NCBI RefSeq assembly: GCF_000021565.1
Contig: NC_012440.1
Location: 1,380,210 to 1,444,209 of the forward strand
Reading direction: 5' to 3'
From: Persephonella marina EX-H1
Lineage (GTDB): Bacteria; Aquificota; Aquificia; Aquificales; Hydrogenothermaceae
DNA length: 64,000 nt
The notes beneath the pieces were generated by a model, which worked only from the letters and a program-made list of their open reading frames with translations, had not been told where the DNA came from and did not search any database. Made by a program: the position numbers and the translations under genes. Shown here piece by piece: positions 1,877 to 18,837 of the stretch; position 1 is the first letter of the stretch; the number at the start of each line of letters is the position of its first letter.

Positions 1877-1878
1877 GG

Positions 1879-2015: not shown

Positions 2016-2070
2016 AAAAAAGTAATTATGATAGTTAATGTATTTTGTATATAAAAATATTGATCTTACA

Positions 2071-2130: not shown

Positions 2131-2132
2131 TT

Positions 2133-2858
2133 ATGAAGGTAAGAGCGATAGTCGGAGGGATCCTTATAATATCAGCTTCTTCATTTGCAGCTCCTGTGGA
2201 AGATATAAGAAACACAGTTCATAATTTAGCGACCTACTCAACGGACACTGATGAGGTCTGTGTGTTCTGCCACACTCCTCACGGATCTAATCAGGCATTT
2301 ACCGGAGCTCCTCTCTGGAACAAGCCTATAGATACAACGGTGACATTCCAGGTATACGGTGGAGGAACAACAATCGGTGGAACAACAGTAGGTCAGCCTG
2401 GTGATGTTTCCCGAGCCTGTCTTTCCTGTCATGATGGTGTTAGCGGAGTTAATACTGTAATTAACCTTCCGGGATCAGGAGGATGGAATACATCAGGATC
2501 AAACCTCAACTACAGAGGTTCTAACCTGCCCTGGAAAATGCCATGGCCTTTCGCAGTTGGTAAAAACGGTAATGGTGGTAACTACGATCTTAGAGATGAC
2601 CATCCGGTTGGTGTTGTGTATAGAGGAGACGAGACAAATCCACCTGCAAGCTTAAAGCCAACAAATACGGATATTACTGGATGGAATATATCTGGGGATA
2701 AAGATGGAAACCCAGGACCAACTATAGGAGATCTTTTAAGAAATGGAAAAGTTGAGTGTGTAAGCTGTCACAACCCGCATCTGAATGCAGCAAGATTCTT
2801 AAGATCTGGTGATGGTAACGCTTACAGTAATGTATGTTTAACATGTCATGGAAAGTAG
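2133..2858 (+). CDS. Secreted tetraheme c-type cytochrome, OmcE-like candidate (copy 1)
   Basis: A 241-residue protein with a Sec signal peptide (about residues 1-20) and four CxxCH sites: C43-H47 (CVFCHTPHG), C96-H100 (CLSCHDG), C209-H213 (CVSCHNPH) and C235-H239 (CLTCH). It has exactly eight histidines: the four proximal ones plus H30, H50, H157 and H216, which are the natural distal ligands, so all four hemes can be bis-His. The middle is Gly/Thr/Asn-rich, as in secreted, surface-exposed proteins. It is very similar to the cytochrome at 13074-13829 (about 12 differences in 79 aligned residues around hemes 1-2, counted by eye). A tetraheme extracellular filament subunit of the OmcE type is the favoured role; a soluble periplasmic shuttle is the alternative. 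Its own promoter and terminator surroundings indicate a single-gene unit. Confidence 0.85.
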   Translation: MKVRAIVGGILIISASSFAAPVEDIRNTVHNLATYSTDTDEVCVFCHTPHGSNQAFTGAPLWNKPIDTTVTFQVYGGGTTIGGTTVGQPGDVSRACLSCHDGVSGVNTVINLPGSGGWNTSGSNLNYRGSNLPWKMPWPFAVGKNGNGGNYDLRDDHPVGVVYRGDETNPPASLKPTNTDITGWNISGDKDGNPGPTIGDLLRNGKVECVSCHNPHLNAARFLRSGDGNAYSNVCLTCHGK

Positions 2859-2863
2859 ATCAT

Positions 2864-2890
2864 AAAAAAGCCCCCGATTTTCGGGGGCTT
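2864..2890 (-). terminator. Terminator of the ten-gene cytochrome operon
   Basis: A 10-bp perfect stem (2868-2877 with 2881-2890, GC-rich core GCCCCC/GGGGGC) has a 3-nt loop. Read on the minus strand it is followed by six T (A run at 2864-2869), so it mainly ends the leftward operon. On the + strand the stem is followed by A rather than T, although it may also stop the convergent gene at 2133. Confidence 0.85.
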
Positions 2891-2903
2891 AAAAAGTCTC
2901 ATT

Positions 2904-3230
2904 CTAATGTTTTAAGATAAACTCAACTAAAGCATCTATCTCTTCATCGGTCATAGCTTTAAGTTTTCCCATCTGTGGCTTCATCATATTGAATCTATCG
3001 GGCCAAATTATAGGTTCAGCTTCGCCTCTTAAGAATGCTTTTAGCTGATTGGGGTTGTTCTTGTAAAACTCAGCTATAGTCTTAAGCGAAGGTCCTATAG
3101 CATCTTTAGTTTCCTTATGACATATAGCACACCTGTTTGTTTTATTGTTAAACAGCTCTTTGCCGTCAATAGCAGCGAAAGCTGTTGTGGCAGTTAGTAT
3201 TATAGCTGCTGCTGCACTGAACTTCTTCAT
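2904..3230 (-). CDS. Small monoheme class I cytochrome c
   Basis: A 108-residue periplasmic electron carrier. It has a signal peptide (residues 1-20, cleavage after AFA/A), one heme site C34-H38 (CAICHKE), the GPSL segment that follows the heme in class I cytochromes, a Met-rich stretch (NMMKPQMG, residues 81-88) giving the axial methionine, and a C-terminal helix (TDEEIDALVEFIL). The start has an ideal AAGGAGGG site. It is the last gene of the operon, overlapping the preceding gene by 4 nt. A single His/Met heme among bis-His multihemes suggests a higher-potential shuttle, perhaps to a terminal oxidase. Confidence 0.88.
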   Translation of the reverse strand: MKKFSAAAAIILTATTAFAAIDGKELFNNKTNRCAICHKETKDAIGPSLKTIAEFYKNNPNQLKAFLRGEAEPIIWPDRFNMMKPQMGKLKAMTDEEIDALVEFILKH

Positions 3231-3730
3231 CTTTTACCCTCCTTATTTTTAAGTATTTTCTCATCCTGAGAAATTATCTTTATTTTTCTGATAAGCCATC
3301 TGTCATTATTTTTTACCAGGTCATACCTCATCTTATATCTTACTTCTGTTTCAGGATGTGCGACAACTCCCCTGGAAATATCTATATACCTGTATGTCCA
3401 TTTTTCATCTGTAAATGCTGTAGCTGTATCACCGTTTACAGATATGTTTGTGAACTTTATATCAAGCAGCTTTGCATCCATATAAAGATTACTCTCATGC
3501 CATGACATTATCCATATATAAAGCTTCTCAGCTACTCTTCCGACAGCTATGTCGGACATCATATTTTTGAATGTGATAATATCAGGCAGATTTTTACTTT
3601 TTGATGCCTGTATAACCGTATGGTTGTATATCTTAATAACCTCCTTTATATCCTTTATATCATCTGCCTTAGCCTGTACTACGTATAAAAAAGCTGTAAG
3701 TACAATCAGGAGATTACGGATAGCTGTCAT
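3227..3730 (-). CDS. Exported NTF2-like/SnoaL-fold protein
   Basis: A protein of 167 residues if translation starts at 3730 (MTAIRNLL...), which gives a clean signal peptide ending in VQAKA. The longer frame from 3793 lies inside the preceding gene and has no signal peptide at its start. A GGAGG site sits 2 nt before the 3730 ATG, closer than usual. The mature part (helical start, then beta strands such as VNGDTATAFTDEKWTYRYID and ending RYDLVKNNDRWLIRKIKI) has the alternating pattern and closing W-x-I strand of NTF2-like domains. It has no heme motif. It overlaps the multiheme gene by 17 nt and the monoheme gene by 4 nt. Function is unknown; an accessory or folding role for the cytochromes is only a guess. 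Confidence 0.7.
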   Translation of the reverse strand: MTAIRNLLIVLTAFLYVVQAKADDIKDIKEVIKIYNHTVIQASKSKNLPDIITFKNMMSDIAVGRVAEKLYIWIMSWHESNLYMDAKLLDIKFTNISVNGDTATAFTDEKWTYRYIDISRGVVAHPETEVRYKMRYDLVKNNDRWLIRKIKIISQDEKILKNKEGKR

Positions 3731-5780
3731 AACCTCCAGCATTCCAGTTGTGACATCTACCTCCACCACCACAGGCCGGTGCATAAACATCACTGTTGTT
3801 CAGAACAGTGTTCCATTTAAATCCGTCCATCATTAACTGTAATGTTCCGTTGTAGTTAAAGTTGTAAGGTTCCGGCATGGTTCTGTATCCAAGCAGTCTT
3901 GATACAGGTGATCCATGTGGGACGGCTATGTGACATTTTACACATGCTATAGAATACATCGCACCTGGTCTTGTCAACATATGAACGGCAGCCTGTGTAA
4001 GATCATGACAGTTTGTACAGAATAATCCCTGTGTTGTTCCTGCCTTAACATCACCTGTTGTGTAAAGTGTCCCATCAGGTTTTGTAGGCCAGTTTGTGTT
4101 TGGTCCTTTAAGCATGAACTGGTGTGTAGAACCATGAGGTCCTCTTGGATCTCCAAGGGCTTCATTATCGGTTCCGTGACAATCTGTACAGTACATAGTC
4201 TGATTTCCCACATTTGCATCCCACGGAGGCAGAACCTGTGTATTTGTTAGAGGTTGAGCATACCTTCCATTTGCCTGATTCCATCCGCTGAGTGTTCCCA
4301 TCTCATTTGTCGTCATTACAACAGGGTGTGCTGATCTGTTATATGGGTTAAACTCACAGGACTGGTCTGTTAAAGGTATACCGCTCTGTGATGAGGTAAA
4401 TGTTGTCACACAGTCTGTAGTGACCGCTCCCAATGCCCATCCAGAGTGACATTTCATACATATCTGATACTCTTTTTGAGCTTCAGCTGTAGTGTTGTAA
4501 GTTGAAGGTTGAGTCCATCTTTGAGGCCATACAGGTTCAACACCGTAAACACCTGCCAGAACATTTGAGACAGCGTTTGATGGGTTCTGAGGATACCATC
4601 CTGATGTATCAGCTGTGGCAGCATGGTTACCAGGTTTTGCTTTGTGGGGATTGTGACAGTCCATACACTCAGCATGTTTTGAGTCTGAAAACTCTATACC
4701 AAAACTTCCGGTAGGAACTCTCGGTACGCCAGAACCATATAAAACATCAAGAGGGGTATGTATATTCTGGTACAGTGCGTCCATAACAGGGTGACCGTAA
4801 GTTTTATTAGGTGGCAGCAGGCTTTCTATATCCTTGGCACCTCCTGCACCGTGACATGGAGCAACGTTTGATGCTGATGCTGCTCCTGTAAAACATGTAG
4901 CCTCCTCAACTTTTCTGAGAAGAGGTTTTCCCTGTGATCTATGAGGTGTATGACAGTTTCCACATCCGAAGTCTGCCACAGAAACGGGAGCTCCTTCACC
5001 GTAAACGGTTGTAACATTTGTATCTGAGTAGGTTAATGTCTGTGTATCATGGGCACTCCCTGTCCATCCAGGTTTGTTGTGACAGGATATACATGTTTGC
5101 TTGAAATCCTGGGCAAGATTTCCAACATCAACCCTTAAAAATCTTTTATTTTGCTTGTGAGGGTCGTGACATGATGTACACTCAACGTAGTCTTTACCGG
5201 AGTAATTGTACAGTTTTATAGGTGGTGATGGTGTGGCTGCAAGTTCTACGGTTTTAACTGTACCATCTGCAAATGTAACCTGTATTGATGGGTTATACTC
5301 AACAGCGACGGGATGATGTACAGACAGGTCTGTCCCTATAAATGTTCTTAATGTAGAAGGTAACGTTCCGTCTGGATTTACGTTTTGCATCTGTATAACT
5401 GTATTCCCCAGTTCAGTACCTCTTACTATATAAACAGCACCTATAGCAACAGTTCCATCATGACAGCTCAGACACTGTCTGGATATTATTCCTGGAGATC
5501 CTTCAAATTCTGATAGTTGTTGAGGAGCTGGATAATTAATTCTCTGGATAAATTCGCTATCATAAAGAGTATAAACGGAGGTAGGCATCTTTCTATTCCA
5601 CAGAGGTGTTCCTTCCTGTTCATGGTGAGGTATATGACAGAAGACACATATCTCTGTCTCGGAAACAGCTTTTATATTTCCAGGTCCTGTTACGGAAAGA
5701 TTGTGCAGTGTATTCTCAATTCCTGCATAACTAAAAAATGATAGACTTAAGAACAGTAATGTAGCTTTTCTAATAAACAT
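3714..5780 (-). CDS. Large secreted multiheme cytochrome c, 10 canonical and 2 unusual heme sites
   Basis: A 688-residue protein with a signal peptide (residues 1-19). Canonical CxxCH sites start at residues 45, 103, 201, 230, 273, 372, 441, 531, 588 and 613. Two further cysteine/CH pairs have long spacers: C296-x12-C309-H310 and C670-x5-C676-H677. The N-terminus (IENTLHNLSVTGPGNIKA...EICVFCHIPHH) is the same module as in the tetraheme cytochromes, so it looks like an enlarged relative. Many HPV and DPH motifs supply distal histidines. An excellent SD (AAGGAGGTGA) precedes the ATG. It sits in the operon 2 nt from a beta-propeller gene. It is likely exported to the periplasm or cell surface as an electron conduit; its partner is not determined by sequence. 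Confidence 0.88.
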   Translation of the reverse strand: MFIRKATLLFLSLSFFSYAGIENTLHNLSVTGPGNIKAVSETEICVFCHIPHHEQEGTPLWNRKMPTSVYTLYDSEFIQRINYPAPQQLSEFEGSPGIISRQCLSCHDGTVAIGAVYIVRGTELGNTVIQMQNVNPDGTLPSTLRTFIGTDLSVHHPVAVEYNPSIQVTFADGTVKTVELAATPSPPIKLYNYSGKDYVECTSCHDPHKQNKRFLRVDVGNLAQDFKQTCISCHNKPGWTGSAHDTQTLTYSDTNVTTVYGEGAPVSVADFGCGNCHTPHRSQGKPLLRKVEEATCFTGAASASNVAPCHGAGGAKDIESLLPPNKTYGHPVMDALYQNIHTPLDVLYGSGVPRVPTGSFGIEFSDSKHAECMDCHNPHKAKPGNHAATADTSGWYPQNPSNAVSNVLAGVYGVEPVWPQRWTQPSTYNTTAEAQKEYQICMKCHSGWALGAVTTDCVTTFTSSQSGIPLTDQSCEFNPYNRSAHPVVMTTNEMGTLSGWNQANGRYAQPLTNTQVLPPWDANVGNQTMYCTDCHGTDNEALGDPRGPHGSTHQFMLKGPNTNWPTKPDGTLYTTGDVKAGTTQGLFCTNCHDLTQAAVHMLTRPGAMYSIACVKCHIAVPHGSPVSRLLGYRTMPEPYNFNYNGTLQLMMDGFKWNTVLNNSDVYAPACGGGGRCHNWNAGGYDSYP

Positions 5781-5782
5781 GA

Positions 5783-6769
5783 TTAATCACCTCCTTTCAG
5801 ATACCTTAGAACCTGGATCCTCATATTGTAAGAATCGGAAACAAAAATATAATTTTTACTTGAGATTGAGATATCTTCGGGAAATGCAAACTCTCCATCT
5901 CTCGTTCCGTAATAACCTACTACAAGAAGAAGCTGACCTTTCTGGTTAAAGATCTGTACTGCACTAAGTAGTGTATCTGTAACGTAGATATTACCATCAC
6001 TATCAACAGCTATACCTCTTGGATTTGCGAATGTTCCAATTACCGTACCTCTTTTTCCAAATTTTCTTAAAAACTTCCCGTTCTCATCAAATATCTGTAC
6101 TCTGGCATTCATAGTATCAACGACATACAGATTTCCCTTTTTGTCCAATGTTATAAATGTTGGTTTATTAAACTCACCATCACCTTTACCTGTCTTTCCT
6201 ATCTGTTTTATAAGCTTACCTTTTAAATCAAAGATGTATATCTTCCCAGCAACCGTATCTGAGACGTACAGCCAGCCTTTCTTGTGATTAATAGTCAGTC
6301 CTGTAGGTCTTTTAAGAAAACCAGATCCGATTTTTCCTTTGTATCTTTTATTATTGTCAAATACGAAAACAGCTCCGAGAACAGAGTCAGAAACGTATAT
6401 ATTTCCTTTTTTATCAACAACAACATCAATAGGGGATGAGAATTTGTAATCACCTATGTTATCAATGTAGTCCACTTTTTTGTTTTTAAAATCAAATATA
6501 AATAGAGTTTTAGCGCCCGTATCTGTAAAGTAAAGTCTATTCCCTATGAAGTATGAACCGAACGGTTTTATTATCTGTTTTTTCTCTTTTCCTATTATCA
6601 CATCTAAGATCTTGCCAAAGAAACCCCTTTCACCTTCTACATCTTCAACTTTTTTGATAGACTTTATCCATTCTATCTTTGGTTTATCTGGTGGCGGAGG
6701 CCATACAAGCTTTTCCTTCGCATATATATTAAACTGGATAATAAGCATTAAAAGTAGGATAAAACGCAT
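5783..6769 (-). CDS. Secreted NHL-repeat beta-propeller protein (propeller 3)
   Basis: A 328-residue protein with a signal peptide (residues 1-17, ending IYA), a WPPPPDKPKIEWI segment, then about six NHL-type repeats (IYVSDSVLGAVFVFD, LYVSDTVAGKIYIFD, LYVVDTMNARVQIFD, IYVTDTLLSAVQIFN, IFVSDSYNMRIQVLR) alternating with G-x-GDGEF-x-P loops. NHL propellers are protein- or polysaccharide-binding scaffolds. Three such proteins are in this operon, all opening with the same P-rich, W/Y-containing leader. NHL and prolyl-isomerase genes are, as I recall, neighbours of filament cytochromes in Geobacter, so an assembly or chaperone role is plausible. The SD is GGAGGA. Confidence 0.85.
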   Translation of the reverse strand: MRFILLLMLIIQFNIYAKEKLVWPPPPDKPKIEWIKSIKKVEDVEGERGFFGKILDVIIGKEKKQIIKPFGSYFIGNRLYFTDTGAKTLFIFDFKNKKVDYIDNIGDYKFSSPIDVVVDKKGNIYVSDSVLGAVFVFDNNKRYKGKIGSGFLKRPTGLTINHKKGWLYVSDTVAGKIYIFDLKGKLIKQIGKTGKGDGEFNKPTFITLDKKGNLYVVDTMNARVQIFDENGKFLRKFGKRGTVIGTFANPRGIAVDSDGNIYVTDTLLSAVQIFNQKGQLLLVVGYYGTRDGEFAFPEDISISSKNYIFVSDSYNMRIQVLRYLKGGD

Positions 6770-6780
6770 CTCTTCCTCCG

Positions 6781-9375
6781 TTAAAAGGGTCTGTAGACTT
6801 TAAAGTAAGTTACATAGTTTCTTCTTTTTCCGTAGTAATCACTGTCTTCATAGAAGTACTGCAGATCCCAGTTAAAGTATAAACTTCTTATTCTGTAGTC
6901 AATTCCTGTTTTGGCTACAGCGTAATTTTTGTTGTAATACGTGTCTCTGTAAACATCTATGCTGAATTTGTATAGAAGTCTCTTTGTAAATTTGTAGGTA
7001 AGGTTTAAGTTTCCGAATGGATAAAATCTCTCCTTCCTGTTTTTACCTTTATAGTATTTAAATCCAATACCGGAGCCAAAAACACCCTTCCATCCAAGTT
7101 TAGAGTGGTATCTTATCGCATTTGAGGTTTCTATATTTTCGTAAGATGTGGTAGTAAATTCTTTATCCTTAACGTAGTATCTGCTGTCCTGATAGTAGTA
7201 TGTGGTGTAGTGATCAAATTTCATATTTTTGCTTAATTGGGATGTTAACCTTTCGGTTATTGAGTACGTATCATTCCGATCATCCTTACTTGATCTATAC
7301 TTTGATCCAGAACCGGATATCAGAAACTGTGAATCAAGGAACGAGAATTTTTTACTGAGACCTCCGTTTAAACTTAATGTTCCACCGTATCTTTCTATTC
7401 TATTTGTTTCAATCTGGCCTGTTACTCCCACACCTCCAAAGATATTTAACGTTTCTGAAACCTGCTTGCTGTAATTAAGATTTGCACCTGTGTTGAGGAG
7501 ATTTATATCTGCATCTGATCCTCTTGATACAAACAGGAGAAGGTTGTGTGTTAAATTCCAGTTTTCATTTATTGTGTAGCTTATATTCTCATTAAATGTC
7601 AGGTATGTTATATCTGAGTAGATACTCTCGTTTCTGCTTAAGTTTAAAGAAACGCTGGAATACAGTTTTTCTGAAGGCATCCAGTTAAAATTAATATTCC
7701 CTGTATAATCTTTCAGGTCTGTATAGCTGTTGCTGTAGTATCTGGCATACGCTCTTAAGTTCGCTGTCTTTGAAGGTCTGAGGTTGTAATCAAATTTGAT
7801 ATTGTTTATATCCTGATAAACATCTCTAAATGAGTTTATGGTCAGATATTTCTGGGTATAGTCATCAATATTTTTCTGTAATGTGATATTTATTGAGCTG
7901 TTGGTGTTTGTTTTTCCGTATGAAACCATATACTCTTTTGTTTTCCTGTACTCTTCAAAATCTATACCAACAGAGTTAGCCTTTGTGTTTTTGTAACCGT
8001 AACTGATCCGCGATTTTACAAAGTTAAAGCTACCAAATATACCGTAACTGTCCGTTTTCCTTTCAACGTATGAAGTTCTGTCGTAATATGTGTACCATAG
8101 CGGAGACTGTGTCCTTTTAGCAAATATGTTTACTGGAAATGGAGAGCTTTTGAGCAAGCTTATATCTATATTGTATCCCCAAAGTTTAGATGTAGAGTCA
8201 CTTTTGTACTCATCTGTTTTTAGTGTTGAGTCTTCTTTCATAAAGCTGACACCAAGCCTGTATGTGGCTAATCTTGGGCTGTAAACATAACCATCATAAT
8301 TGAGCTCATAATACTGTTTGAAGGAATCTCTTGTTGTTTTCCTGTACTGATCTTTATAATTTTCTTTCTTATACGTAAACTCAATCTTTCCCCAGAATCC
8401 TCTCTGTTTGTGGGTCCACATATACGCAGGTATGAACAGCAGTCCGCCAAGTATCTTTTTGTAAAGAGGGATCTCTACTTTTTCTTCCTCAAAAAGTGTG
8501 AGTTCTTCCTCTTCTTCAAACTCTGTAATATCCAGTGAAGATGTGTCTTCAAGTTCTTTTTCAGAAACCAGTTCTGGCTGCTGAACTTTTTCCTTCTCTT
8601 CTGGTATCTGCTGGATCTCTTCTATAAGTTTTTCTTCTTCTACGACTGGTTTTTCAGGGGCAGCTTCTGGTACTTTCTCAATCTCTCCTTCAGTTTTTGC
8701 AACAGCTGGGGGAGTTACTGAAGGTTTTTCAGAAACAGGTGGAGGAACTACGGGCACTGCAGCTTCAACCTTTTCTTCGGATTTTTTTTCTTCTGGCTGT
8801 TTTTCAGCTAACTTTTCTTCCTTTTTCTCTTCCTTTTTCAAGTAGTCTGAAACCTTTGATATTAAAGATTTAACAAGTATACTTTCGTAAGGAAATGTTT
8901 TCTGAACCTCTTTGATTAACTTATAGCTGTCAAAAAGACCGTATCTTACGGTGTAATAACCACTGTTTGTTTTGTATATGAAGGTATTTTCTTTTATTTC
9001 TGGAGGTAACTTCTCAAGGAATTTTCTTGCATTTTCCTCTCTTTTGAAAGAGGCCAACTGAAGTGAGTAGAGATACTCCTCTTTTGCCTGAAATACCTGG
9101 CTTTCACTCTGGGCTGATGCAACTTTTAATCCAAGGGGTAAAGATCCTTTAGGTATGTTTTCTTTAAAAACTGAATATCTCAAAGAGTACTTACCATCTT
9201 CCTGTTTTACAAGATCTAAATTATCCTTGAATACAGGTGGTAGTTTTTCAATATATTTTTTAGCCTCATTGTAGTCTTCAAATGTTTCAAAATCTATACT
9301 GTACTCAGAGAGAATACCAATACTTGCTAAGGTCGCAACCGATACTAAAGCGGTAATTAAATACCTTCTTTTCAT
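6781..9375 (-). CDS. SPOR-like/linker/outer-membrane beta-barrel protein
   Basis: An 864-residue protein in three parts. After an N-terminal hydrophobic segment (residues 7-23) come two SPOR-like repeats (about 25-75 and 100-170; SLQLASFKREENARKFLEKLP and the closing GYYTVRYGLF). A Pro/Glu/Lys-rich, probably disordered linker follows (about 180-305, with runs such as VPPPVSEKPSVTPP). From about 320 to the end there are alternating polar/aromatic strands dense in Tyr, finishing in ...YFKVYRPF, whose terminal Phe is the BAM recognition signature. The barrel portion (about 540 residues) is large enough for 24-28 strands, the size of MtrB-like conduits. SPOR modules usually bind denuded peptidoglycan. 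The combination could tether a large pore to the cell wall and pass or secrete cytochromes. The barrel call is firm; its cargo is inferred. Confidence 0.8.
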   Translation of the reverse strand: MKRRYLITALVSVATLASIGILSEYSIDFETFEDYNEAKKYIEKLPPVFKDNLDLVKQEDGKYSLRYSVFKENIPKGSLPLGLKVASAQSESQVFQAKEEYLYSLQLASFKREENARKFLEKLPPEIKENTFIYKTNSGYYTVRYGLFDSYKLIKEVQKTFPYESILVKSLISKVSDYLKKEEKKEEKLAEKQPEEKKSEEKVEAAVPVVPPPVSEKPSVTPPAVAKTEGEIEKVPEAAPEKPVVEEEKLIEEIQQIPEEKEKVQQPELVSEKELEDTSSLDITEFEEEEELTLFEEEKVEIPLYKKILGGLLFIPAYMWTHKQRGFWGKIEFTYKKENYKDQYRKTTRDSFKQYYELNYDGYVYSPRLATYRLGVSFMKEDSTLKTDEYKSDSTSKLWGYNIDISLLKSSPFPVNIFAKRTQSPLWYTYYDRTSYVERKTDSYGIFGSFNFVKSRISYGYKNTKANSVGIDFEEYRKTKEYMVSYGKTNTNSSINITLQKNIDDYTQKYLTINSFRDVYQDINNIKFDYNLRPSKTANLRAYARYYSNSYTDLKDYTGNINFNWMPSEKLYSSVSLNLSRNESIYSDITYLTFNENISYTINENWNLTHNLLLFVSRGSDADINLLNTGANLNYSKQVSETLNIFGGVGVTGQIETNRIERYGGTLSLNGGLSKKFSFLDSQFLISGSGSKYRSSKDDRNDTYSITERLTSQLSKNMKFDHYTTYYYQDSRYYVKDKEFTTTSYENIETSNAIRYHSKLGWKGVFGSGIGFKYYKGKNRKERFYPFGNLNLTYKFTKRLLYKFSIDVYRDTYYNKNYAVAKTGIDYRIRSLYFNWDLQYFYEDSDYYGKRRNYVTYFKVYRPF

Positions 9376-9385
9376 CTTTCTTCTC

Positions 9386-10363
9386 TCAGGAATCTTTTTT
9401 ATCCTCGTAGATCTCTACCTTCAGGTTTTTCTTGGCATCTTTTATAAGTTCATTAAACTTTCTTTCCTGCATTACCTCTGTAAGTTCTTTTTTCAGCTTA
9501 TCTTTTATTTCCTCATAAGGAACAAGTCTTGGAGGTCTTTTATCCTCAATCTTCACTATATGAAGCCCAGTATCAGTCTCAATTATTTTACTGACCTGTC
9601 CAACATCAAGTTTATATATCTCTTCCTCAATCTGTTTTGGAAATCTTCCCTTGTGAACGTAACCTATATCTCCACCTTTTATCCTGCTCAGATCATCTGA
9701 GTATCTGTAAGCTACATCACCAAAATCTTTTCCTTCTTTTATCTCCTTATATGCTTTCTTTGCCTTTTCTCTGGCTTTCTCCCTTCCTTTCGGATCGGAG
9801 GGATCAACCTTGATATATATGTATCTTACTTTTACGGAGGCAGGTTCTTTGAATTTATCTTTGTTTTTTTCATAGTACTCTTTAAGGTCTTTATCGGTTA
9901 AAGATACTATTGCATACTTTTTGATGAGTTTATCAACTAAAAGCCTTTTTTCCAGCTCTTTTTTAAATCCCTCAATCGTAAGACCGGTCTGTTTTAAAAG
10001 TTTTTCAAGATTCTCTTTTGATTTGTACTGCTTTATCAGCTGATCCATAAGATTATTGATCTCTTTTTCCGTCACTTTTAATCCTTTCTTCTTTGCTTCA
10101 TAATATAGAAGTTCCCTGTATATGAGATTCTGGATTGCTTTTTCCCTTATCTCTTTAAGTTTTTCCTCAGTTATATTCCTGTGATAAAAGTTCATAGGTA
10201 GAAGAATTTTCATCATTCTCTGAACTTCCATCTCTGTAATCTCAACATCTCCTACCTTTGCAACAACTTTATTTTTTGTGGATGGATCTATATTCCATCC
10301 AAATCCTTCATATGCATAAACGGATGTTATTAAGCCTAAAAGAAAGATTATTACCTTGAACAT
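9386..10363 (-). CDS. Periplasmic parvulin-type peptidyl-prolyl isomerase, SurA-like
   Basis: A 325-residue protein: signal peptide (residues 1-17), a SurA N-like helical chaperone region (about 28-165, VAKVGDVEITEMEVQRMM... and KEINNLMDQLIKQYK), one rotamase PpiC domain (about 170-285, VKVRYIYIKVDP..., FGDVAYRYSDDLSRIKGGDIGYV, and DTGLHIVKIEDKRPP) and a charged C-terminal helix. It would isomerise prolines and chaperone secreted or outer-membrane proteins. Its location between NHL genes and the barrel gene suggests dedicated folding of the barrel or the proline-containing cytochromes. The ATG overlaps the stop of the upstream gene (TAATG), so translation is coupled; the SD is AAGGAG. Confidence 0.9.
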   Translation of the reverse strand: MFKVIIFLLGLITSVYAYEGFGWNIDPSTKNKVVAKVGDVEITEMEVQRMMKILLPMNFYHRNITEEKLKEIREKAIQNLIYRELLYYEAKKKGLKVTEKEINNLMDQLIKQYKSKENLEKLLKQTGLTIEGFKKELEKRLLVDKLIKKYAIVSLTDKDLKEYYEKNKDKFKEPASVKVRYIYIKVDPSDPKGREKAREKAKKAYKEIKEGKDFGDVAYRYSDDLSRIKGGDIGYVHKGRFPKQIEEEIYKLDVGQVSKIIETDTGLHIVKIEDKRPPRLVPYEEIKDKLKKELTEVMQERKFNELIKDAKKNLKVEIYEDKKDS

Positions 10364-11370
10364 TATTTCTCCTTTTTAAGATACTTGAATATCTGTATCC
10401 TTTTATTTAATGAATCAACAACAAAAATTCTGTCTTTTTCATCAATATAAATTCCGGCAGGTAAAAGGAATTCTGCAGGTCCAAATCCAGGGCCTCCTAT
10501 ATAGTACAGTAGATCTCCTTCAGATGAAAATATCTGAAAGTTATTGAATGCAGCGTCAACTACGTATATATTACCATCACTATCAACAGCTATTCCTTTA
10601 GGTCTTGCAAATCTTCCAGGAAGATCTCCAATTCCGCCAATAGTAAGAATATGCTCAAAATCTTTTGTAAAAACCTGAATTCTGAAAAGCTGTGTATCGG
10701 TAATATATATGTTGCTGTTGTTCTTGTTTACGAATATATTTGTTGGGTAGTTAAACTCACCTGGTCCGTCCCCTCTTCTTCCAAAACCGAAAAGGTAGTT
10801 TCCATCAAGATCATAAACCTTTATTCTGTGATCAAAGGTATCAACCACATACAGCCTGTTCAGATCATCATCAACCGCAAGACCGACAGGTTTTTTAAAC
10901 TCACCTTTCCTTCCTATCGCAACCACAAGCTGTCCTTTCGTATTAAACCCAAAAACTTTCTGTAGTTTCGCATCCGAGATGTATAGAATTCTTTTCTTTT
11001 TTGAAAATGTGATCCCCATAGGCAGTTCAAAGGGTATAGGAAAGTGAAGATCTTTTAATTTCTTAGTTTTTAAGTTATAGGAGTAAATAAGAGCATGGGC
11101 TGTATCGGTAAAAAATACAGTACTCCCAACAGCAACAACACCGTAAGGTTTGCCAAGATAATCAGGTAGTTCCAGTTCTTTTTTCTCGCCGAAAAGAAAA
11201 TCCAGAAAGTTACTTTCACTCTCTCTGGATATATCAGGAATCTGGCCTAAGTATTTAATCCTTACCTCAACACCAGGTCTTGGCTCAGGAAAATATAAAG
11301 TCTGGGCTTTCGCCCTCTCAAATATAAACAGACCTATAAATAAGCATAGAAAAATATTTTTATAATTCAT
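10363..11370 (-). CDS. Secreted NHL-repeat beta-propeller protein (propeller 2)
   Basis: A 335-residue protein with a signal peptide (ending RAKA/Q at about residue 22), the leader YFPEPRPGVEVRIKYLG, then six NHL-like blades (for example LYVVDTFDHRIKVYD, IYITDTQLFRIQVFT, IYVVDAAFNNFQIFS, IFVVDSLNKRIQIFK). It is closer to propeller 1 (11956-13089) than to propeller 3: both keep the AAFNNxQIF blade and GFGPxEFxLPAGxYxD. No enzyme motif is visible. It overlaps the tetraheme gene upstream by 11 nt and the parvulin downstream by 1 nt, so it is firmly part of the operon. Confidence 0.85.
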   Translation of the reverse strand: MNYKNIFLCLFIGLFIFERAKAQTLYFPEPRPGVEVRIKYLGQIPDISRESESNFLDFLFGEKKELELPDYLGKPYGVVAVGSTVFFTDTAHALIYSYNLKTKKLKDLHFPIPFELPMGITFSKKKRILYISDAKLQKVFGFNTKGQLVVAIGRKGEFKKPVGLAVDDDLNRLYVVDTFDHRIKVYDLDGNYLFGFGRRGDGPGEFNYPTNIFVNKNNSNIYITDTQLFRIQVFTKDFEHILTIGGIGDLPGRFARPKGIAVDSDGNIYVVDAAFNNFQIFSSEGDLLYYIGGPGFGPAEFLLPAGIYIDEKDRIFVVDSLNKRIQIFKYLKKEK

Positions 11371-11947
11371 GGCATCCCATACAGAACATACTACCTTTAT
11401 TAGGGTGTCTCAGGAAAAGTTTGTTTGTTGAGTGTGGATCGTGACAGCTTCCACACTGTATCCTGCCGTTGTAATCTTTAACAAGATCTCCTACAAAGTT
11501 TTTCTTTCCCCATCCAATTAATGGGCTGTTAAATGGCTTTAAGTAATATGTACCTGGTCTGTAAACAACAAATACAGGATGACTGTGTACACTGACACCT
11601 GTTGATGCTCTTCCAAATGTTATATTTGGTGCATTTGCACCATCGTGACATGTTAGACATGCTAAAGATGCAGGTAGCATCTCTTTCAGAATCTTTTTCT
11701 TTTTAGACTGACCGTAAATCGTAAAGTTTTCTACAGGTTTTTGTGGATCCCATTTGAATTCTACTTCCACGAAGGAGGTGTTAATGTTTAATGTGTGACA
11801 CCATATACAGAGGGCTAACTGTGACCCTTCAACATTTGGGTTTAAAAGTCTTCCGTTGTGCTCTGCAAGATTATGTTTAGTATCCTCAATACCGGCATAT
11901 AATGAAGCTGAAAAAGACAAAAAAACTATTAAATAAAAAAAGAACAT
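11360..11947 (-). CDS. Divergent tetraheme c-type cytochrome
   Basis: A 195-residue protein with a signal peptide (ending LYA/G at 18) and four CxxCH sites: C47-H51, C97-H101, C165-H169 and C189-H193. It keeps the family start (GIEDTKHNLAEHNG) and the CLTCHDG and CGSCHDPHS motifs, but the first heme reads CIWCHTLN, losing the CxxCHTPH histidine found in the two tetraheme paralogs. Extra histidines (H30, H121, H123, H181) could replace it. The Gly/Thr-rich segments of the paralogs are missing and the sequence is more basic (KKKK at 82-85). It may be a capping, nucleating or adaptor subunit rather than the bulk cytochrome. The SD is AGGA, 6-7 nt from the ATG. Confidence 0.82.
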   Translation of the reverse strand: MFFFYLIVFLSFSASLYAGIEDTKHNLAEHNGRLLNPNVEGSQLALCIWCHTLNINTSFVEVEFKWDPQKPVENFTIYGQSKKKKILKEMLPASLACLTCHDGANAPNITFGRASTGVSVHSHPVFVVYRPGTYYLKPFNSPLIGWGKKNFVGDLVKDYNGRIQCGSCHDPHSTNKLFLRHPNKGSMFCMGCHEL

Positions 11948-11955
11948 TGCAGTTC

Positions 11956-13089
11956 CTACTTTTTCTCAGATTTTGTTTCGGTTTCTGCCTTTAATTTTTT
12001 TGAAGGTTTGTAGCTTTTGATTTCTCTGTATTTTTCAGGGTATTTTTTCTTCCATCTTTCACTTAGATACTGGAATACCTGTATCCTTTTGTTCATAGAG
12101 TCTGCAACATAAAGTTTGTCTGACCTGTCAACGTATAGTCCTGCTGGGAGATTAAACTCTCCAGGACCAAAACCAAACTTTCCTATGAACAGTAATAATC
12201 TTCCTTTGTCGTCAAATATCTGTATATTGTTAAACGCAGCATCTGCCACATAAATATGACCTTCACTGTCTATGCCAACACCTTTTGGTCTGGCAAATGT
12301 CCCTGGAACAACGCCCAGTTTGCCGAAAGATCTTATAAACTCACCTTCAGGGGTGAAGATCTGAACTCTGAAATTCATAGTATCAACAACAGCAATATTG
12401 CCGTTTCTTCTATCTATTGCTATGTTTGTAGGGAAGTTAAACTGACCTTCCTCTTTACCTCTTTTTCCAAAGGAGAAAAGAAATCTTCCATCTTTTAGGG
12501 AGTAAACCTTAACCCTGTGATCAAGAACATCAACAACATATATACGTCCTAACTTTTCATTTAGAGCTATACCTGCAGGTCTCTGGAGTAAACCGGGTCC
12601 TTCAGGCTCGCCAATCGTTGTGATCAGTTTTCCTTTTATATCGTAGACAAAAACCCTCTGTTGTTTTGCGTCAGCAACATAAACTTTTCCGGTTTTGTCT
12701 ACATCAATTCCTACAGGAATTCTGAGTTTACCCATCGGCTTGTCGCCGATGAAAGAGACTTTCTTGTTTTTTGGATCAATAACGAATACTACCGCGGTCA
12801 CAGTATCACCTGCGAATATCTTACCGAACCTGCCTGCTACACCGTAGGGTTTTATTAGGTTTCTGGGAACATCCTTATCTGGTTCACCTAACAGAACATC
12901 AAGGGCACTTTTACCCTTGAAATCAGATTCCCCGTGGTAGCTACCAAGATAGAGTATTCTTGGTTCTTCAGGGGGGAGGGGCCAGAAGATCTTCTCAACC
13001 TTCTGAGGTTTCTTCGCGGCCCCACATGAGTATAAAATCAGCCCAATCGTCAGTAAGATTAAGTACTTATAGTTTATTTTGCGTGACAT
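11956..13089 (-). CDS. NHL-repeat beta-propeller lipoprotein (propeller 1)
   Basis: A 377-residue protein with a lipobox (LILYSC, lipidated Cys22), the leader KIFWPLPPEEPRILYLG, six NHL blades (VYVADAKQQRVFVYD, IYVVDVLDHRVKVYS, IAVVDTMNFRVQIFT, IYVADAAFNNIQIFD, LYVADSMNKRIQVFQ) and a Lys/Glu-rich tail (SKKLKAETETKSEKK). It is anchored to a membrane, unlike the other two propellers of the operon. It overlaps the tetraheme cytochrome gene by 16 nt, so the two are translationally linked; a direct partnership with that cytochrome is inferred from this. Confidence 0.87.
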   Translation of the reverse strand: MSRKINYKYLILLTIGLILYSCGAAKKPQKVEKIFWPLPPEEPRILYLGSYHGESDFKGKSALDVLLGEPDKDVPRNLIKPYGVAGRFGKIFAGDTVTAVVFVIDPKNKKVSFIGDKPMGKLRIPVGIDVDKTGKVYVADAKQQRVFVYDIKGKLITTIGEPEGPGLLQRPAGIALNEKLGRIYVVDVLDHRVKVYSLKDGRFLFSFGKRGKEEGQFNFPTNIAIDRRNGNIAVVDTMNFRVQIFTPEGEFIRSFGKLGVVPGTFARPKGVGIDSEGHIYVADAAFNNIQIFDDKGRLLLFIGKFGFGPGEFNLPAGLYVDRSDKLYVADSMNKRIQVFQYLSERWKKKYPEKYREIKSYKPSKKLKAETETKSEKK

Positions 13090-13829
13090 GTTAAACAGAG
13101 CTGGCTACCAGTATTCGCAAGTCTGAGGAATGTTGGGTTCTCACCAAGGTGAGGATCGTGACATGATACACACTCAATCTTTCCTGCTCTGAGAAGGTCA
13201 CCAACTGTAGGTCCTGGATTTCCGTCCTTATCTCCAGCTATAACAAATCCTGATGGAAGTGCTGTTGTTGTTGGAACAAGTGAAGCTGGTGGGCTTGCCT
13301 CATCACCTCTGTAAAGAACACCTACTGGGTGGTCGTTTCTGAGGTCAGTTCCGATCTGCGTAATACCTGATGGCATTGTAGCAGCTGTTCCAGCTGGTAT
13401 TGTAGTAGTTCCGTTGTCTACTGTGAATGCAATAAGGTTACCTGCTGAGTTCCATCCACCTGAACCAGGCAGGTTTATGATTGAGTTGATAGCGTTAACA
13501 CCGTCGTGACATGAGAGACATGCTCTTGAAACGTCACCTGGCTGTCCTACAGTTGTTCCACCTGTTGTCTGTCCTCCACCGTAAACCTGGTAAGTTACTG
13601 TTGTGTCAATAGCTTTGTTCCAGAGTGGAGCACCAACGAATGACTGGTTAGATCCGTGAGGAGTATGACAGAACACACAGATCTCGTTGTTAACATCTGC
13701 TGGGTTTGCAGCACGGATTTTGTTCGCAGTGTTGCTCAGATCATGCTTTGATCCTGCGATAAGAGCCATTGAACTGCTCACTGAGAGCCCTACCGCAGCT
13801 ACAATGCCTGCGTAGACAAGCTTTTTCAT
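13074..13829 (-). CDS. Secreted tetraheme c-type cytochrome, OmcE-like candidate (copy 2)
   Basis: A 251-residue protein with a signal peptide (residues 1-22) followed by the IAGSKHDLSNTANK start. CxxCH sites are C51-H55, C104-H108, C220-H224 and C245-H249. The only other histidines are H29 (SKHD), H58 (CHTPH), H167 (NDHPVG) and H227 (CHDPH): eight in all, exactly what four bis-His hemes need. The region between hemes 2 and 3 is Gly/Thr/Ala/Pro-rich and is where copy 1 differs most. It heads the ten-gene operon, so it should be the most abundant product. Tetraheme size, motif order and the all-bis-His pattern agree with the OmcE filament family. Filament formation is not proven by sequence. 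The SD GGGAGG lies 9 nt from the ATG. Confidence 0.87.
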   Translation of the reverse strand: MKKLVYAGIVAAVGLSVSSSMALIAGSKHDLSNTANKIRAANPADVNNEICVFCHTPHGSNQSFVGAPLWNKAIDTTVTYQVYGGGQTTGGTTVGQPGDVSRACLSCHDGVNAINSIINLPGSGGWNSAGNLIAFTVDNGTTTIPAGTAATMPSGITQIGTDLRNDHPVGVLYRGDEASPPASLVPTTTALPSGFVIAGDKDGNPGPTVGDLLRAGKIECVSCHDPHLGENPTFLRLANTGSQLCLTCHAK

Positions 13830-13868
13830 CTCTACTACCTCCCTTCATTCTTAAATTTAAATGGCCTC

Positions 13869-13929
13869 GCCTTTCCTCTCTCTACTCTTCACCACTAAAT
13901 CTATCCTATTTTCATGAAAAAATCGTGAG
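13869..13929 (-). promoter_or_regulatory. Conserved 5' leader segment, copy 2
   Basis: This lies between the predicted transcription start and the tetraheme gene at 13829. On the minus strand it holds CACGATTTTTTCAT (plus 13914-13927), TAGATTTAGT and GAGAGGAAAGG (13869-13880 region), the same ordered blocks as at 2071-2130. Here the purine-rich block is about 40 nt from the ATG and is not the ribosome-binding site, so conservation may reflect RNA-level regulation or common ancestry. Confidence 0.5.
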
Positions 13930-13969
13930 AGTTACCATTTTGATTCCTATTCTAAAAACATACTAATAA

Positions 13970-13998
13970 TTAATATCATTTAAAGTTTGAAAAGTCAA
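13970..13998 (-). promoter_or_regulatory. Candidate sigma-70 promoter of the ten-gene cytochrome operon
   Basis: On the minus strand, TTGACT (13998-13993), a 17-nt spacer and TATTAA (13975-13970) give a start near 13963 and a leader of about 130 nt before the ATG at 13829. The gap 13830-14119 is an AT-rich divergent control region with no gene seen in it. Confidence 0.5.
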
Positions 13999-14053
13999 GC
14001 ATTACTATGATTAAATATACTTTATATGATACTAATATTCAATATAATAATTA

Positions 14054-14067: not shown

Positions 14068-14119
14068 TGTTTAGTTATAAACTAAGAAACAATAATATAT
14101 GAAATAAGGGGTGGCTACG

Positions 14120-15283
14120 ATGAAAACCATTTTTTATTTTTTAGCCCTTTTTATTTTTGGTTACGCAGCAGCAGAGCAGGGAAAAACTCAGGAGGAAAAA
14201 CCACCTATCGTGCCGGAAAAAAGAGTTCTACACCCACCTTTTGAGATCGGTGATTGTACGCTCTGTCACGTGGAGAAGGACGGTAATAAGTACGCTCTTT
14301 CCCAGGAACCTCCTGATCTGTGTTATATGTGTCATGAAAGGAAGGATACGAAAACCAGAGTTCACGGGCCGATAGCTGCAGGTATGTGTACAGCCTGTCA
14401 CGATCCTCACCAGTCAGATACAATGAGACTTCTGAAAGCAGACTCTGTTAATGATCTCTGTTTCGCATGTCACGAAGATAAGAAAAAACAGTTTTTATCA
14501 AAACCATATATGCATCCACCTGTTAAGGATCAGTGTATTAACTGTCACGATCCTCACCAGGAGAATCATAGGTACAGACTGTTTGCAGATAGAAGGTTTG
14601 ATCTATGTGTATCATGTCATGCTGATAAAAAGGAATGGGTTGAAAAGGTAAAGAATAAACACGGTGCTATAAAGATAAAAGATAGATGTCTGAACTGTCA
14701 CGATCCACACTCATCTGAGAATGAGAAGTTCCTCAGAAAACCGACGGCTATGGATGTGTGTTTAACATGTCATAACAAAGAGCTGAAGAGGGAAGAGGAT
14801 GGGGTTACATTAATGAATATGAAAAAGCATCTTGATGAAAATCCTGACTGGCACGGGCCTATACAGTGGGGTGACTGTGCAATGTGTCATAACCCCCACG
14901 GTTCAGACAACTTCAGAATGCTAAAACTTCCATTCCCTGAGACATTCTATGCCAGCTTTAATATTAACAAGTACATATGTTTTATGTGTCACGAAACGGA
15001 AAGATTTACTGAAGTTCTCACAACAACAGCAACGAACTTCAGAAATGGAGAGGTAAACCTCCATTATGTTCATGTTAACCAGAAAAAGGGTAGAACATGT
15101 AGAGCCTGCCATGACTGGCACGCAACAAGAGATACACCTCACCATATTAGAAAGTATATGAAGTTTGGAAAGATAAAAGCACCTTTAAGATACATACCTA
15201 CTAAAACAGGTGGTTCATGTGCTCCTATGTGTCACCCAAGGAGGTATTACGATAGAGAAAATCCTGTAATCAACAAGAGATAG
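14120..15283 (+). CDS. Multiheme c-type cytochrome, 11 CxxCH plus one CX3CH
   Basis: A 387-residue periplasmic protein starting at ATG 14120. A GTG nine bases earlier is in frame, but the AGGGGTGG site overlaps that GTG and is well spaced for the ATG. A signal peptide (ending AAA/EQG) is followed by paired heme modules (CTLCH, CYMCH, CTACHDPHQ, CFACH, CINCHDPHQ, CVSCH, CLNCHDPHS, CLTCH, CAMCHNPHG, CFMCH, CRACHDWH) of the doubled-CXXCH class, and then CAPMCH, an expanded CX3CH site inside the conserved GGSCAPxCH...YDR tail. It is homologous along its length to the membrane-anchored protein at 16085. As first gene of the + operon it probably carries electrons across the periplasm. Confidence 0.9.
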   Translation: MKTIFYFLALFIFGYAAAEQGKTQEEKPPIVPEKRVLHPPFEIGDCTLCHVEKDGNKYALSQEPPDLCYMCHERKDTKTRVHGPIAAGMCTACHDPHQSDTMRLLKADSVNDLCFACHEDKKKQFLSKPYMHPPVKDQCINCHDPHQENHRYRLFADRRFDLCVSCHADKKEWVEKVKNKHGAIKIKDRCLNCHDPHSSENEKFLRKPTAMDVCLTCHNKELKREEDGVTLMNMKKHLDENPDWHGPIQWGDCAMCHNPHGSDNFRMLKLPFPETFYASFNINKYICFMCHETERFTEVLTTTATNFRNGEVNLHYVHVNQKKGRTCRACHDWHATRDTPHHIRKYMKFGKIKAPLRYIPTKTGGSCAPMCHPRRYYDRENPVINKR

Positions 15284-15289: not shown

Positions 15290-15309
15290 ATAGGGGCTTA
15301 TGCCCCTAT
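15290..15309 (+). other. Intergenic RNA hairpin between two cytochrome genes
   Basis: A perfect 8-bp stem (15290-15297 with 15302-15309, AGGGGC/GCCCCT core) encloses a 4-nt loop, 6 nt after the upstream stop. It has no T run, so it is not a classical terminator. It covers an in-frame ATG at 15300, arguing that translation of the next gene starts at 15333. It may adjust relative expression of the two cytochromes or protect the upstream mRNA 3' end. Confidence 0.55.
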
Positions 15310-15332
15310 ATAATATATGTGAGGACGGAAGG

Positions 15333-16073
15333 ATGGGGAATGAAAAGAAAGATGATGGCAGACTGGAAGAAACCCACGAAGAGAACGAGATAGGTGGAGA
15401 GAAAAAGGCAGGAAAGAAAGGTTTTTTAATCGGGGTTTCTTTACTTGTTGCAGGTGTTGTTATTGGGCTTGTAATAGCCTACATAGTTGTATATGCCGTT
15501 AAACTGACAGGTGGTGCCCAGTTCTGTAAGTCATGTCACCCAATGCAACCTATGTATAAAGCCTATTCAAAGGATACGCATGGTGGTTGGGGAAGAAGTG
15601 GGTTTGTGGCACACTGTACTGACTGTCATCTTCCTCACGACAGTATAATCGGATACCTTGTAAGAAAGGTTCAGGTCGGTCTACACGATTTTAAGGTAAT
15701 GGTTTTTGGTGATCCAAGTAAGGTAAACTGGCATGAAAAAAGGGAACACAGAAGATACTTTGTTTACGATTCAGGATGCCTTCACTGTCATGAGAACCTT
15801 CTTGCTGCAACAATGAAAAAGAAGAAAGCATTTATAGCGCATAAGGCATACTTTTCTGGAAAACTTGTGGTCAGGATAGGTCATGAGAAGGATAAGGCCC
15901 ACTGTGTAGACTGTCATAAACATGTAGGTCATAAAGATTTAGGTAAATATTTACCACCGCCACCACCAGAAGAAAAACTGATTGAAGAATCAGAAAAACT
16001 TATAGAAGAATCAGTAAAAGAGCTTGAAAAAGAAGAAAAATCAGAAAATAAGCATAACTCCGGTAAACATTAG
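15333..16073 (+). CDS. NapC/NrfH/CymA-type tetraheme quinol dehydrogenase
   Basis: A 246-residue protein: a charged cytoplasmic start, one transmembrane helix (about 31-56), then periplasmic heme sites C65-H69 (CKSCHPM), C95-H99 (CTDCHLPH), C149-H153 and C191-H195, ending in a Pro then Glu/Lys-rich tail. In this family the protein oxidises membrane quinol and passes electrons to periplasmic cytochromes; the CxxCHxM at heme 1 fits the methionine-ligated first heme of NrfH/NapC. ATG 15333 is chosen because the earlier ATG (15300) sits in a hairpin; GAGG lies 8 nt upstream. Located between two 12-heme genes, it is the likely electron entry point of the island. Confidence 0.9.
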   Translation: MGNEKKDDGRLEETHEENEIGGEKKAGKKGFLIGVSLLVAGVVIGLVIAYIVVYAVKLTGGAQFCKSCHPMQPMYKAYSKDTHGGWGRSGFVAHCTDCHLPHDSIIGYLVRKVQVGLHDFKVMVFGDPSKVNWHEKREHRRYFVYDSGCLHCHENLLAATMKKKKAFIAHKAYFSGKLVVRIGHEKDKAHCVDCHKHVGHKDLGKYLPPPPPEEKLIEESEKLIEESVKELEKEEKSENKHNSGKH

Positions 16074-17689: not shown

Positions 17690-17708
17690 TACTTGTGGAC
17701 TGAGTGAA

Positions 17709-18821: not shown

Positions 18822-18837
18822 TTTCAGGGGAGACAAG

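Follow-up and report, generated by a model that had tools for sequence, protein, structure and literature searches.

Gene content and layout of the operon

Persephonella marina EX-H1 carries a ten-gene operon on the minus strand, from position 13829 to position 2904 of the window (the whole 64,000-nt stretch of DNA that was analyzed). All ten ORFs were intact at the positions listed in Table 1. The gaps between consecutive genes were -16 nt (TetA/NHL1), +8 nt (NHL1/TetB), -11 nt (TetB/NHL2), -1 nt (NHL2/PPI), +10 nt (PPI/barrel), +11 nt (barrel/NHL3), +2 nt (NHL3/MHC688), -17 nt (MHC688/NTF2), and -4 nt (NTF2/monoheme), in agreement with the spacing of -17 to +11 nt given in the first-pass annotation. 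The gap of -17 nt uses the NTF2 start at 3730, and the longest ORF there starts at 3793. The hairpin at 2890–2868, just 3′ of the last gene, was the strongest terminator-like one on 1800–14200. Promoter-like sites were no more frequent than in shuffled sequence, and therefore no promoter is claimed.

Table 1. Features of the operon and its flanks (positions in the window).
Feature	Coordinates	Strand	Basis
TetC, second full OmcE-type tetraheme, 241 aa, convergent to the operon	2133..2858	+	59% identity to TetA; every ligand kept
Putative intrinsic terminator	2868..2890	-	10-bp stem, 7 G-C, U tract
Monoheme class-I cytochrome c, 108 aa	2904..3230	-	Pfam Cytochrom_C, E 9.6e-12
Small secreted protein, possibly NTF2-like	3227..3730 (longest ORF to 3793)	-	Sub-threshold ARC6-IMS match
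MHC688, UetJ ortholog, N-terminal OmcE-fold tetraheme module plus further hemes, 688 aa	3714..5780	-	Residues 7–236 to OmcE 7tfs, E 1.5e-23
NHL3, propeller in the slot adjoining the undecaheme (UetH/I slot), 328 aa	5783..6769	-	Pfam; own cross-phylum clade, support 99
BAR, SPOR domain(s), disordered acidic linker, and 28-strand predicted outer-membrane barrel, UetC slot, 864 aa	6781..9375	-	SPOR E 6e-8; C-terminal Phe
PPI, SurA/PPIC periplasmic prolyl isomerase, UetB slot, 325 aa	9386..10363	-	Pfam Rotamase_3, E 1.2e-23; SurA_N_3, E 8e-18
NHL2, propeller paired with TetB, 335 aa	10363..11370	-	Pfam; inside NHL1 clade of tree
TetB, divergent OmcE-fold tetraheme without the CHTPH histidine, 195 aa	11360..11947	-	7tfs, E 3.5e-11
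NHL1, six-bladed propeller with lipobox, first-slot family, 377 aa	11956..13089	-	Pfam NHL, E 6.7e-36; NHL tree; lipobox LYSC
TetA, UetA/OmcE-type tetraheme, probable wire subunit, 251 aa	13074..13829	-	PDB 9yuq, E 1.4e-22; 7tfs (OmcE), E 7.1e-22
MHC390, 11-heme MtrA/DmsE-like cytochrome	14111..15283	+	MtrA chain 6r2q_A, E 1.5e-15; TIGR03508, E 1.2e-33, below cut-off
NapC/NrfH-like tetraheme, candidate quinol-side entry	15300..16073	+	Pfam Cytochrom_NNT, E 3.6e-29
MHC534, MHC370, MHC326, 11-, 7-, and 8-heme cytochromes	16085..19818	+	Pfam Paired_CXXCH

The complete gene order was conserved in sister genomes. All 12 NHL-repeat matches in the 1.98-Mb genome fell within NHL1, NHL2, and NHL3, and only two PPIC matches were found across the whole genome. 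This conserved order and the rarity of both domains indicate that the operon is more than a chance assembly. Pfam analysis recovered the three NHL propellers, the SurA/PPIC isomerase, one SPOR domain, the cytochromes with doubled CXXCH motifs, and the class-I monoheme cytochrome; for the NTF2-like part of the first-pass annotation, the one match was the sub-threshold ARC6-IMS hit (E 0.0034). The small secreted protein is conserved beside the large cytochrome in Campylobacterota, Nitrospinota, and Aquificaceae.

A divergent operon at 14111–19818, beyond the range covered earlier, carries MtrA-like and octaheme genes that are conserved partners: homologs of MHC390 and MHC326 adjoin the tetraheme in other phyla. 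MHC390 scored 116.7 bits against TIGR03508, for which the cut-off is 192.2. An SQR-like flavoprotein is encoded further on, at 20002–21441.

OmcE-fold cytochromes

The OmcE nanowire fold was detected in three subunits of the operon, namely, TetA, TetB, and residues 1–236 of MHC688. In TetA, all four CXXCH motifs and all four distal histidines of OmcE were conserved, including the inter-subunit ligand, and the TetA sequence shows clear homology to the subunit of OmcE nanowires. This homology argues for the earlier proposal of a dedicated cytochrome filament or conduit system. Across the loci compared, all eight positions were kept in 91–92 of 92 tetrahemes and in 45 of 45 UetJ N-domains.

MHC688 contains 10 CXXCH motifs, one CX12CH, and one CX5CH, so that the previous description of a 10–12-heme cytochrome was right. 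The 10 CXXCH motifs and the CX12CH align one-to-one with the 11 CXXCH motifs of full-length UetJ-like orthologs, making the expanded CX12CH a putative site for heme 6. The OmcE module was found in all 37 UetJ-like cytochromes and is the likely filament anchor. With OmcE as a query, genomes of several lineages yielded the large cytochrome as well as the tetraheme. Possession of the OmcE fold does not by itself imply polymerization, a point against the reading as a wire.

TetB deviates at a single ligand. The position matching the distal histidine H58 of TetA was N or K in seven of seven TetB orthologs. We take this CHTPH histidine to correspond to His16 of OmcS, by which one subunit supplies a ligand to its neighbor. 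In a tree of the propellers from the operon and from Uet-like loci, the NHL1 and NHL3 slots fell in separate parts. The TetB–NHL2 pair looks like a lineage-specific duplication of the TetA–NHL1 pair, which gives a place to the divergent tetraheme that the first-pass annotation could not assign. The ligand lost in all seven orthologs and the SQR-like flavoprotein nearby could also fit a surface redox enzyme, for example for sulfur or polysulfide reduction, in which TetB with one open heme would be the catalytic subunit, fed by its NrfH-like and SQR-like neighbors. However, TetB was absent from every examined cluster outside Persephonella, so catalysis by TetB cannot be the core function, and we regard an enzyme of this kind as very improbable.

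Predicted outer-membrane barrel and relation to known systems

AlphaFold predicted 28 strands for BAR with pLDDT mostly above 90 across residues 327–864; overall pLDDT was 58.7 (poor) with 8 sequences and 75.0 with 16 sequences. BAR aligned to 32 proteobacterial UetC-slot barrels, taken from Uet-like loci and not from the original Tenderia sequence, with an HHalign probability of 99.5% (E 2.6e-22). Judged by this profile match, BAR belongs to the UetC-slot family, and the SPOR domain alone is special. SPOR-only matches in four sister genomes (G001, G002, G010, and G017) were judged to be unrelated proteins and left out.

The Uet (undecaheme electron transfer) cluster has been described in Tenderiales and Gallionella (Eddie et al., 2022, via PMC10734462). 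In that description, UetA is an extracellular tetraheme, UetB an isomerase, UetC a barrel, UetH/I NHL proteins, and UetJ an undecaheme cytochrome; the trihemes UetD/E/G are periplasmic (PMC10734462). In both systems, a single cluster holds a tetraheme, a PPIase, a barrel, NHL proteins, and an undecaheme, and TetA, BAR, and MHC688 are homologous to the tetrahemes (Gallionella records included), barrel, and undecaheme of Uet-like proteobacterial loci. Unlike Uet, P. marina has the extra TetB–NHL2 pair, the SPOR domain on the barrel, the CX12CH at heme 6, and, encoded divergently, an MtrA-like partner. Neither this operon nor the divergent one contained a triheme ORF, so UetD/E/G have no counterpart in them. 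By gene content, the operon is thus a variant of the Uet cluster. The earlier statement that the barrel and the divergent tetraheme occur in no described system does not hold, and the match to Uet rules out an unknown system.

Of 61 related genomes, exactly eight contained NHL1; these eight were also the ones with BAR and the only ones with a TetA ortholog. Further afield, NHL, PPIC, and barrel genes recurred beside OmcE-type tetrahemes in several other phyla, so the co-occurrence of propellers, parvulin, and barrel with tetrahemes, on which the first-pass annotation had staked its proposal, was borne out. The order TetA-NHL1-PPI-BAR-NHL3-UetJ(-NTF2-ccs) was conserved in Sulfurimonas, Nitrospirota, Nitrospinota, and an Aquificaceae MAG, the last with the core order lacking PPI. 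Geobacter was not found in the phylum of L102, where 19 of 285 genomes had any match (best identity, 53%). In a Geobacter-like OmcE locus, an NHL gene was present and a 750–806-aa neighbor was marginally similar to BAR (HHalign 37%). Because this similarity is only marginal, wire formation may not need exactly this barrel.

TetA, TetC, and the UetJ N-domain have the same tetraheme fold as two cytochromes of known structure, the OmcE nanowire of Geobacter (PDB 7tfs) and the related 9yuq, and retain every ligand. Identity is 35–39%, and a filament of the P. marina proteins is putative. The BAR profile gave no sequence match in the PDB. By structure, MtrB (6r2q_B) had the top TM score in the PDB list (0.34/0.42), yet below 0.5. 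MtrCAB may resemble the locus in the MtrA-like MHC390 and in MtrB as the best structural match of BAR, and differs from it in the 28 predicted strands of BAR and in these low scores. Together with the classification of Uet as a porin–cytochrome complex in published work (PMC10734462), this possible resemblance could favor a conduit without a wire, in which the barrel and the MtrA-like or UetJ cytochrome would cross the outer membrane and TetA and TetB would be monomeric surface or periplasmic carriers. We consider such a conduit rather unlikely, since no ligand of a proven filament subunit is missing from TetA, and three paralogous OmcE-fold proteins with a dedicated isomerase and propellers exceed what a conduit needs.

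The osc (omcS companion) cluster of Geobacter (Shen et al., 2025, via PMC13194489) is similar as described, with a prolyl isomerase, a beta-propeller, and channel-like proteins beside the wire cytochrome. There, the isomerase is assigned to folding, OscEFG to secretion, and OscD to the morphology of the OmcS wire (PMC13194489). Its wire cytochrome is the hexaheme OmcS; no hexaheme was found in the operon or its flanks, and TetA matches OmcE rather than OmcS. By analogy with OscEFG, the P. marina barrel might be mainly an export channel through which TetA is secreted to polymerize outside, with electrons reaching the wire otherwise. A 28-strand pore would be large, and in nearly all loci the isomerase lies directly 5′ of the barrel. 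Among 60 loci of at least 10 kb, 46 had a PPI match, and a barrel-length ORF came next. The constant linkage to UetJ and to an MtrA-like cytochrome points instead to electron flow at the same site, and no plug, gating, or energizing partner was seen; a role chiefly in export therefore appears improbable.

Other systems were more distant. No obvious osc set was seen beside an OmcS homolog (L194) within the stretch taken. A locus of a Geobacterales-like genome (L195), considered as osc, turned out to be an OmcZ locus: PPIC, NHL, and a large multiheme cytochrome lie beside the wire subunit as in P. marina, while the subunit is OmcZ, an OzpA-type subtilase and Ig-like proteins are present, and no UetC-type barrel was seen. 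The SEEP-SRB1/Desulfuromonadales operon (16-heme, 26-heme, propeller, PPIase; PMC5539420) likewise combines a propeller and a PPIase with large cytochromes; its cytochromes differ, and the core set, as described, includes no tetraheme of the OmcE type. The Oet conduit was rejected, as its description names neither propeller nor isomerase and its cytochrome set differs (PMC10553843), and so was PCC3, the cytochromes of which are much larger and which needs an inner-membrane protein not seen in the P. marina locus.

Proposed apparatus and significance

The operon is best explained as coding for a Uet-type apparatus of extracellular electron transfer, by which a cytochrome wire resembling OmcE would be folded, exported, anchored, and electrically fed (probability about 0.6). 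Its support consists of homology, ligand conservation, synteny, co-occurrence, and the predicted barrel. We infer that TetA (and TetC) would be the polymer subunits. The propellers would have capping or scaffolding roles, and the PPIC isomerase would be the chaperone in the periplasm. In the outer membrane, the 28-strand barrel could form the platform, with its SPOR domain holding it to peptidoglycan. MHC688 (UetJ) may be the adaptor: its OmcE-fold module would dock to the wire with the same geometry of heme ligands, and the extra hemes would connect the wire with the barrel. The divergent operon would supply the inside route, with electrons presumably passing from the NapC/NrfH-like quinol cytochrome to the MtrA-like and octaheme carriers.

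A more specific and tentative form of this Uet-type reading is a cell-anchored wire. Here, UetJ would be the base, with its OmcE-fold module replacing the first subunit and linked by the same cross-subunit heme ligation, and its remaining hemes would lead to the 28-strand barrel, which the SPOR domain would tie to peptidoglycan. TetB, without the CHTPH histidine, might then be a one-sided terminal subunit.

To our knowledge, the chemolithotrophic Aquificota lineage of the deep-sea vent bacterium P. marina is not known for extracellular electron transfer, and the present findings extend OmcE wires and Uet to it. The secretion and anchoring of cytochrome wires were called "still speculative" in a 2025 review (PMC12307469). 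In several phyla, the OmcE wire fold recurs inside a second, larger cytochrome that always adjoins a conserved barrel, isomerase, and propellers. This connects OmcE wires with Uet, which have been described as separate topics. The operon offers concrete, deletable candidates for the wire base, platform, and chaperone. If the cell-anchored wire is true, Uet, so far read as an electron-uptake porin–cytochrome complex, would be the widespread system for assembling and anchoring wires of the OmcE type.

Operon structure and conservation in relatives

All ten ORFs of the operon (TetA, NHL1, TetB, NHL2, PPI, BAR, NHL3, MHC688, NTF2 and a monoheme cytochrome) were intact; they lie on the minus strand at spacings of -17 to +11 nt, as the first-pass annotation had described, and a strong hairpin terminator closes the operon. 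Every NHL repeat of the host genome (1.98 Mb, two contigs) falls within it. The functional unit extends beyond these ten genes, because divergent cytochromes are conserved alongside. In Sulfurimonas, Nitrospirota and Geobacterales-like OmcE loci (G412 and G607 were taken as Geobacterales because of an OmcE match at 60% identity and the presence of OmcZ and OmcS homologs), the tetraheme is flanked by homologs of MHC390 and MHC326, two multihemes of the divergent operon. Sulfurimonas locus L046 holds a collinear set of monoheme, MHC390, MHC326, TetA, NHL1, PPI, BAR, NHL3, UetJ, NTF2 and ccs.

Coordinates of the features discussed (window positions unless a locus is named)
Feature	Position	Strand
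Ten-gene operon	13829-2904	-
Hairpin terminator	2890-2868	
TetC	2133-2858	+
BAR, barrel with SPOR	6781-9375	-
Divergent cytochrome operon	14111-19818	+
Type III sulfide:quinone oxidoreductase-like flavoprotein	20002-21441	+
Second UetJ-like cytochrome	G000:C2:1763975-1766086 (L142:7975-10086)	
DUF4136 lipoprotein, Aquificaceae cluster	L029:8028-8633	-
OmcZ locus L195	G607:C1:3169001-3189000	

The full gene order was kept in four sister genomes (L023-L026), with TetC and ccs past the operon and, opposite them, the genes of the divergent cytochromes, and in L027 and L028/L034 up to the contig limits. In an unseeded test, eight of 61 relatives carried the barrel (E ≤ 1e-47), the same eight carried NHL1 (E ≤ 1e-111), and the TetA ortholog (E ≤ 1e-63) was also confined to them; beyond these genomes, G034 had only a 41%-identical tetraheme. 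Seven of the eight genomes belong to one family, so the co-occurrence does not represent eight independent events. On the other hand, the eighth lies in a different family, and the set is patchily distributed within the genus. The 79 tetraheme-seeded loci were the best-scoring ones and hence a biased sample; NHL matches in 51 and PPIC matches in 46 of the 60 loci of at least 10 kb are therefore not population frequencies. The barrel-like criterion in that count was loose, and the Desulfobacterota loci were picked by hand.

In Geobacterales-like L195, an OmcZ locus encodes an OzpA-type subtilase, PPIC, two Ig-repeat proteins, NHL and a 23-heme cytochrome; PPIC and NHL accompany this unrelated wire as well. 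The Geobacterales-like OmcE loci L177, L178 and L180 carry MtrA-like and octaheme genes upstream of OmcE and, downstream, a secreted protein of 750-806 aa with a terminal Phe, followed by glycosyltransferases. Next to OmcE, an NHL gene was called in L177 and L180, and a genome search placed NHL repeats next to OmcE in the genome of L178.

Relation to the Uet cluster

The undecaheme electron transfer (Uet) cluster was taken from Tenderiales and found in Gallionella too; its described components are the extracellular tetraheme UetA, the peptidylprolyl isomerase UetB, barrel UetC, periplasmic trihemes UetD/E/G, NHL proteins UetH/I and undecaheme UetJ (PMC10734462). Beta- and gammaproteobacterial loci retrieved via TetA showed this layout (NHL-Tet-PPI-barrel-trihemes-NHL-NHL-large cytochrome). 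The barrel family of the window matched their barrels with an HHalign probability of 99.5% (E 2.6e-22) and Desulfobacterota-like barrels with 99.4%. Unlike Uet, the cluster lacks trihemes and was therefore named a Uet-type variant rather than a strict Uet cluster.

Heme sites of MHC688, the 688-aa large cytochrome, and its relatives were collinear. An eleventh CXXCH, its His aligned with MHC688 residue 310, is present in full-length proteobacterial, deltaproteobacterial and acidobacterial members; at this place, members from Aquificota, Campylobacterota, Nitrospirota and Nitrospinota carry CX12CH or a motif near it, with the Cys retained. Another common site is a C-terminal CX3-5CH. MHC688 is therefore a UetJ ortholog, predicted to bind 11 hemes and perhaps 12. 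Another UetJ-like cytochrome (703 aa, 10 CXXCH plus CX12CH) is solitary, having no propeller or barrel neighbours.

Tetrahemes, propellers and barrel

Along its full length, TetA aligned with OmcE, a nanowire subunit, and with 9yuq, another tetraheme cytochrome; TetB matched both more weakly. Residues 7-236 of MHC688 also matched OmcE (E 1.5e-23), and the OmcE module was present in every one of the 37 UetJ-like cytochromes that reach 480 aa. The 92 tetrahemes and 45 large-cytochrome N-domains from the fetched loci share four CXXCH and an identical set of four distal His, except for one tetraheme whose first distal His is missing in the alignment. Subunits of OmcE and OmcS each use a His to ligate a heme of the neighbouring subunit (PMC9473688, PMC12954529). 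Since only these four distal His are common to OmcE and its relatives, the cross-subunit ligand must, provided that ligation is conserved, be one of the four. The CHTPH histidine was replaced by N or K in 7/7 TetB orthologs. An OmcS homolog has CHTMH at this position, its His being residue 16 by alignment to 6ef8; we take His16 to be the residue that ligates a heme of the adjoining OmcS subunit. TetC is encoded convergently to the operon, in a position conserved in sister genomes; it is a complete OmcE-type tetraheme with 59% identity to TetA.

A tree of 124 propellers resolved NHL1 and NHL3 as separate old families, each spanning several phyla, and placed NHL2 inside the NHL1 part (support 86-94). 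TetB-NHL2, confined to Persephonella among the loci examined, accordingly appears to have arisen when TetA-NHL1 was duplicated locally.

The SPOR domain was restricted to Persephonella barrels; other orthologs (522-598 aa) begin at or near the barrel. In the P. marina protein the SPOR-like repeat is tandem (local score 97, shuffled maximum 61); its degenerate copy, residues 26-70, lies N-terminal to the recognised SPOR; sister genomes have one only. Related genomes (L030, L031, L032) encode SPOR-repeat proteins of ~1600 aa amid other very large ORFs, and in an Aquificaceae cluster a DUF4136 lipoprotein gene lies between a SPOR-less barrel and NHL3. AlphaFold with 16 aligned sequences gave BAR residues 327-864 a pLDDT mostly >90 and 28 strands. 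Among the PDB structures listed, MtrB of the Mtr complex scored highest by TM, at only 0.34/0.42, and the barrel profile had no sequence match in the PDB. The modelled size would fit a conduit and an export pore alike.

Predicted electron route

The cluster very probably encodes an extracellular electron transfer apparatus of the Uet type (probability about 0.85); that it combines a wire with a conduit is somewhat favored. In the likeliest mechanism, apocytochromes would be sec-exported and then matured by the Ccs system, with the PPIC isomerase assisting folding, and a wire would be built from TetA at the barrel. We hypothesize that UetJ, whose first domain has the wire-subunit fold, is an adaptor joining wire to barrel, and that TetB is a terminal subunit. 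The divergent operon has genes for an 11-heme MtrA/DmsE-like cytochrome, a NapC/NrfH-like tetraheme and three further multihemes, and is followed by the sulfide:quinone oxidoreductase-like gene, from which sulfur can be guessed as electron acceptor or donor. Electrons would pass between quinol and wire via the NapC/NrfH-like and MtrA-like cytochromes.
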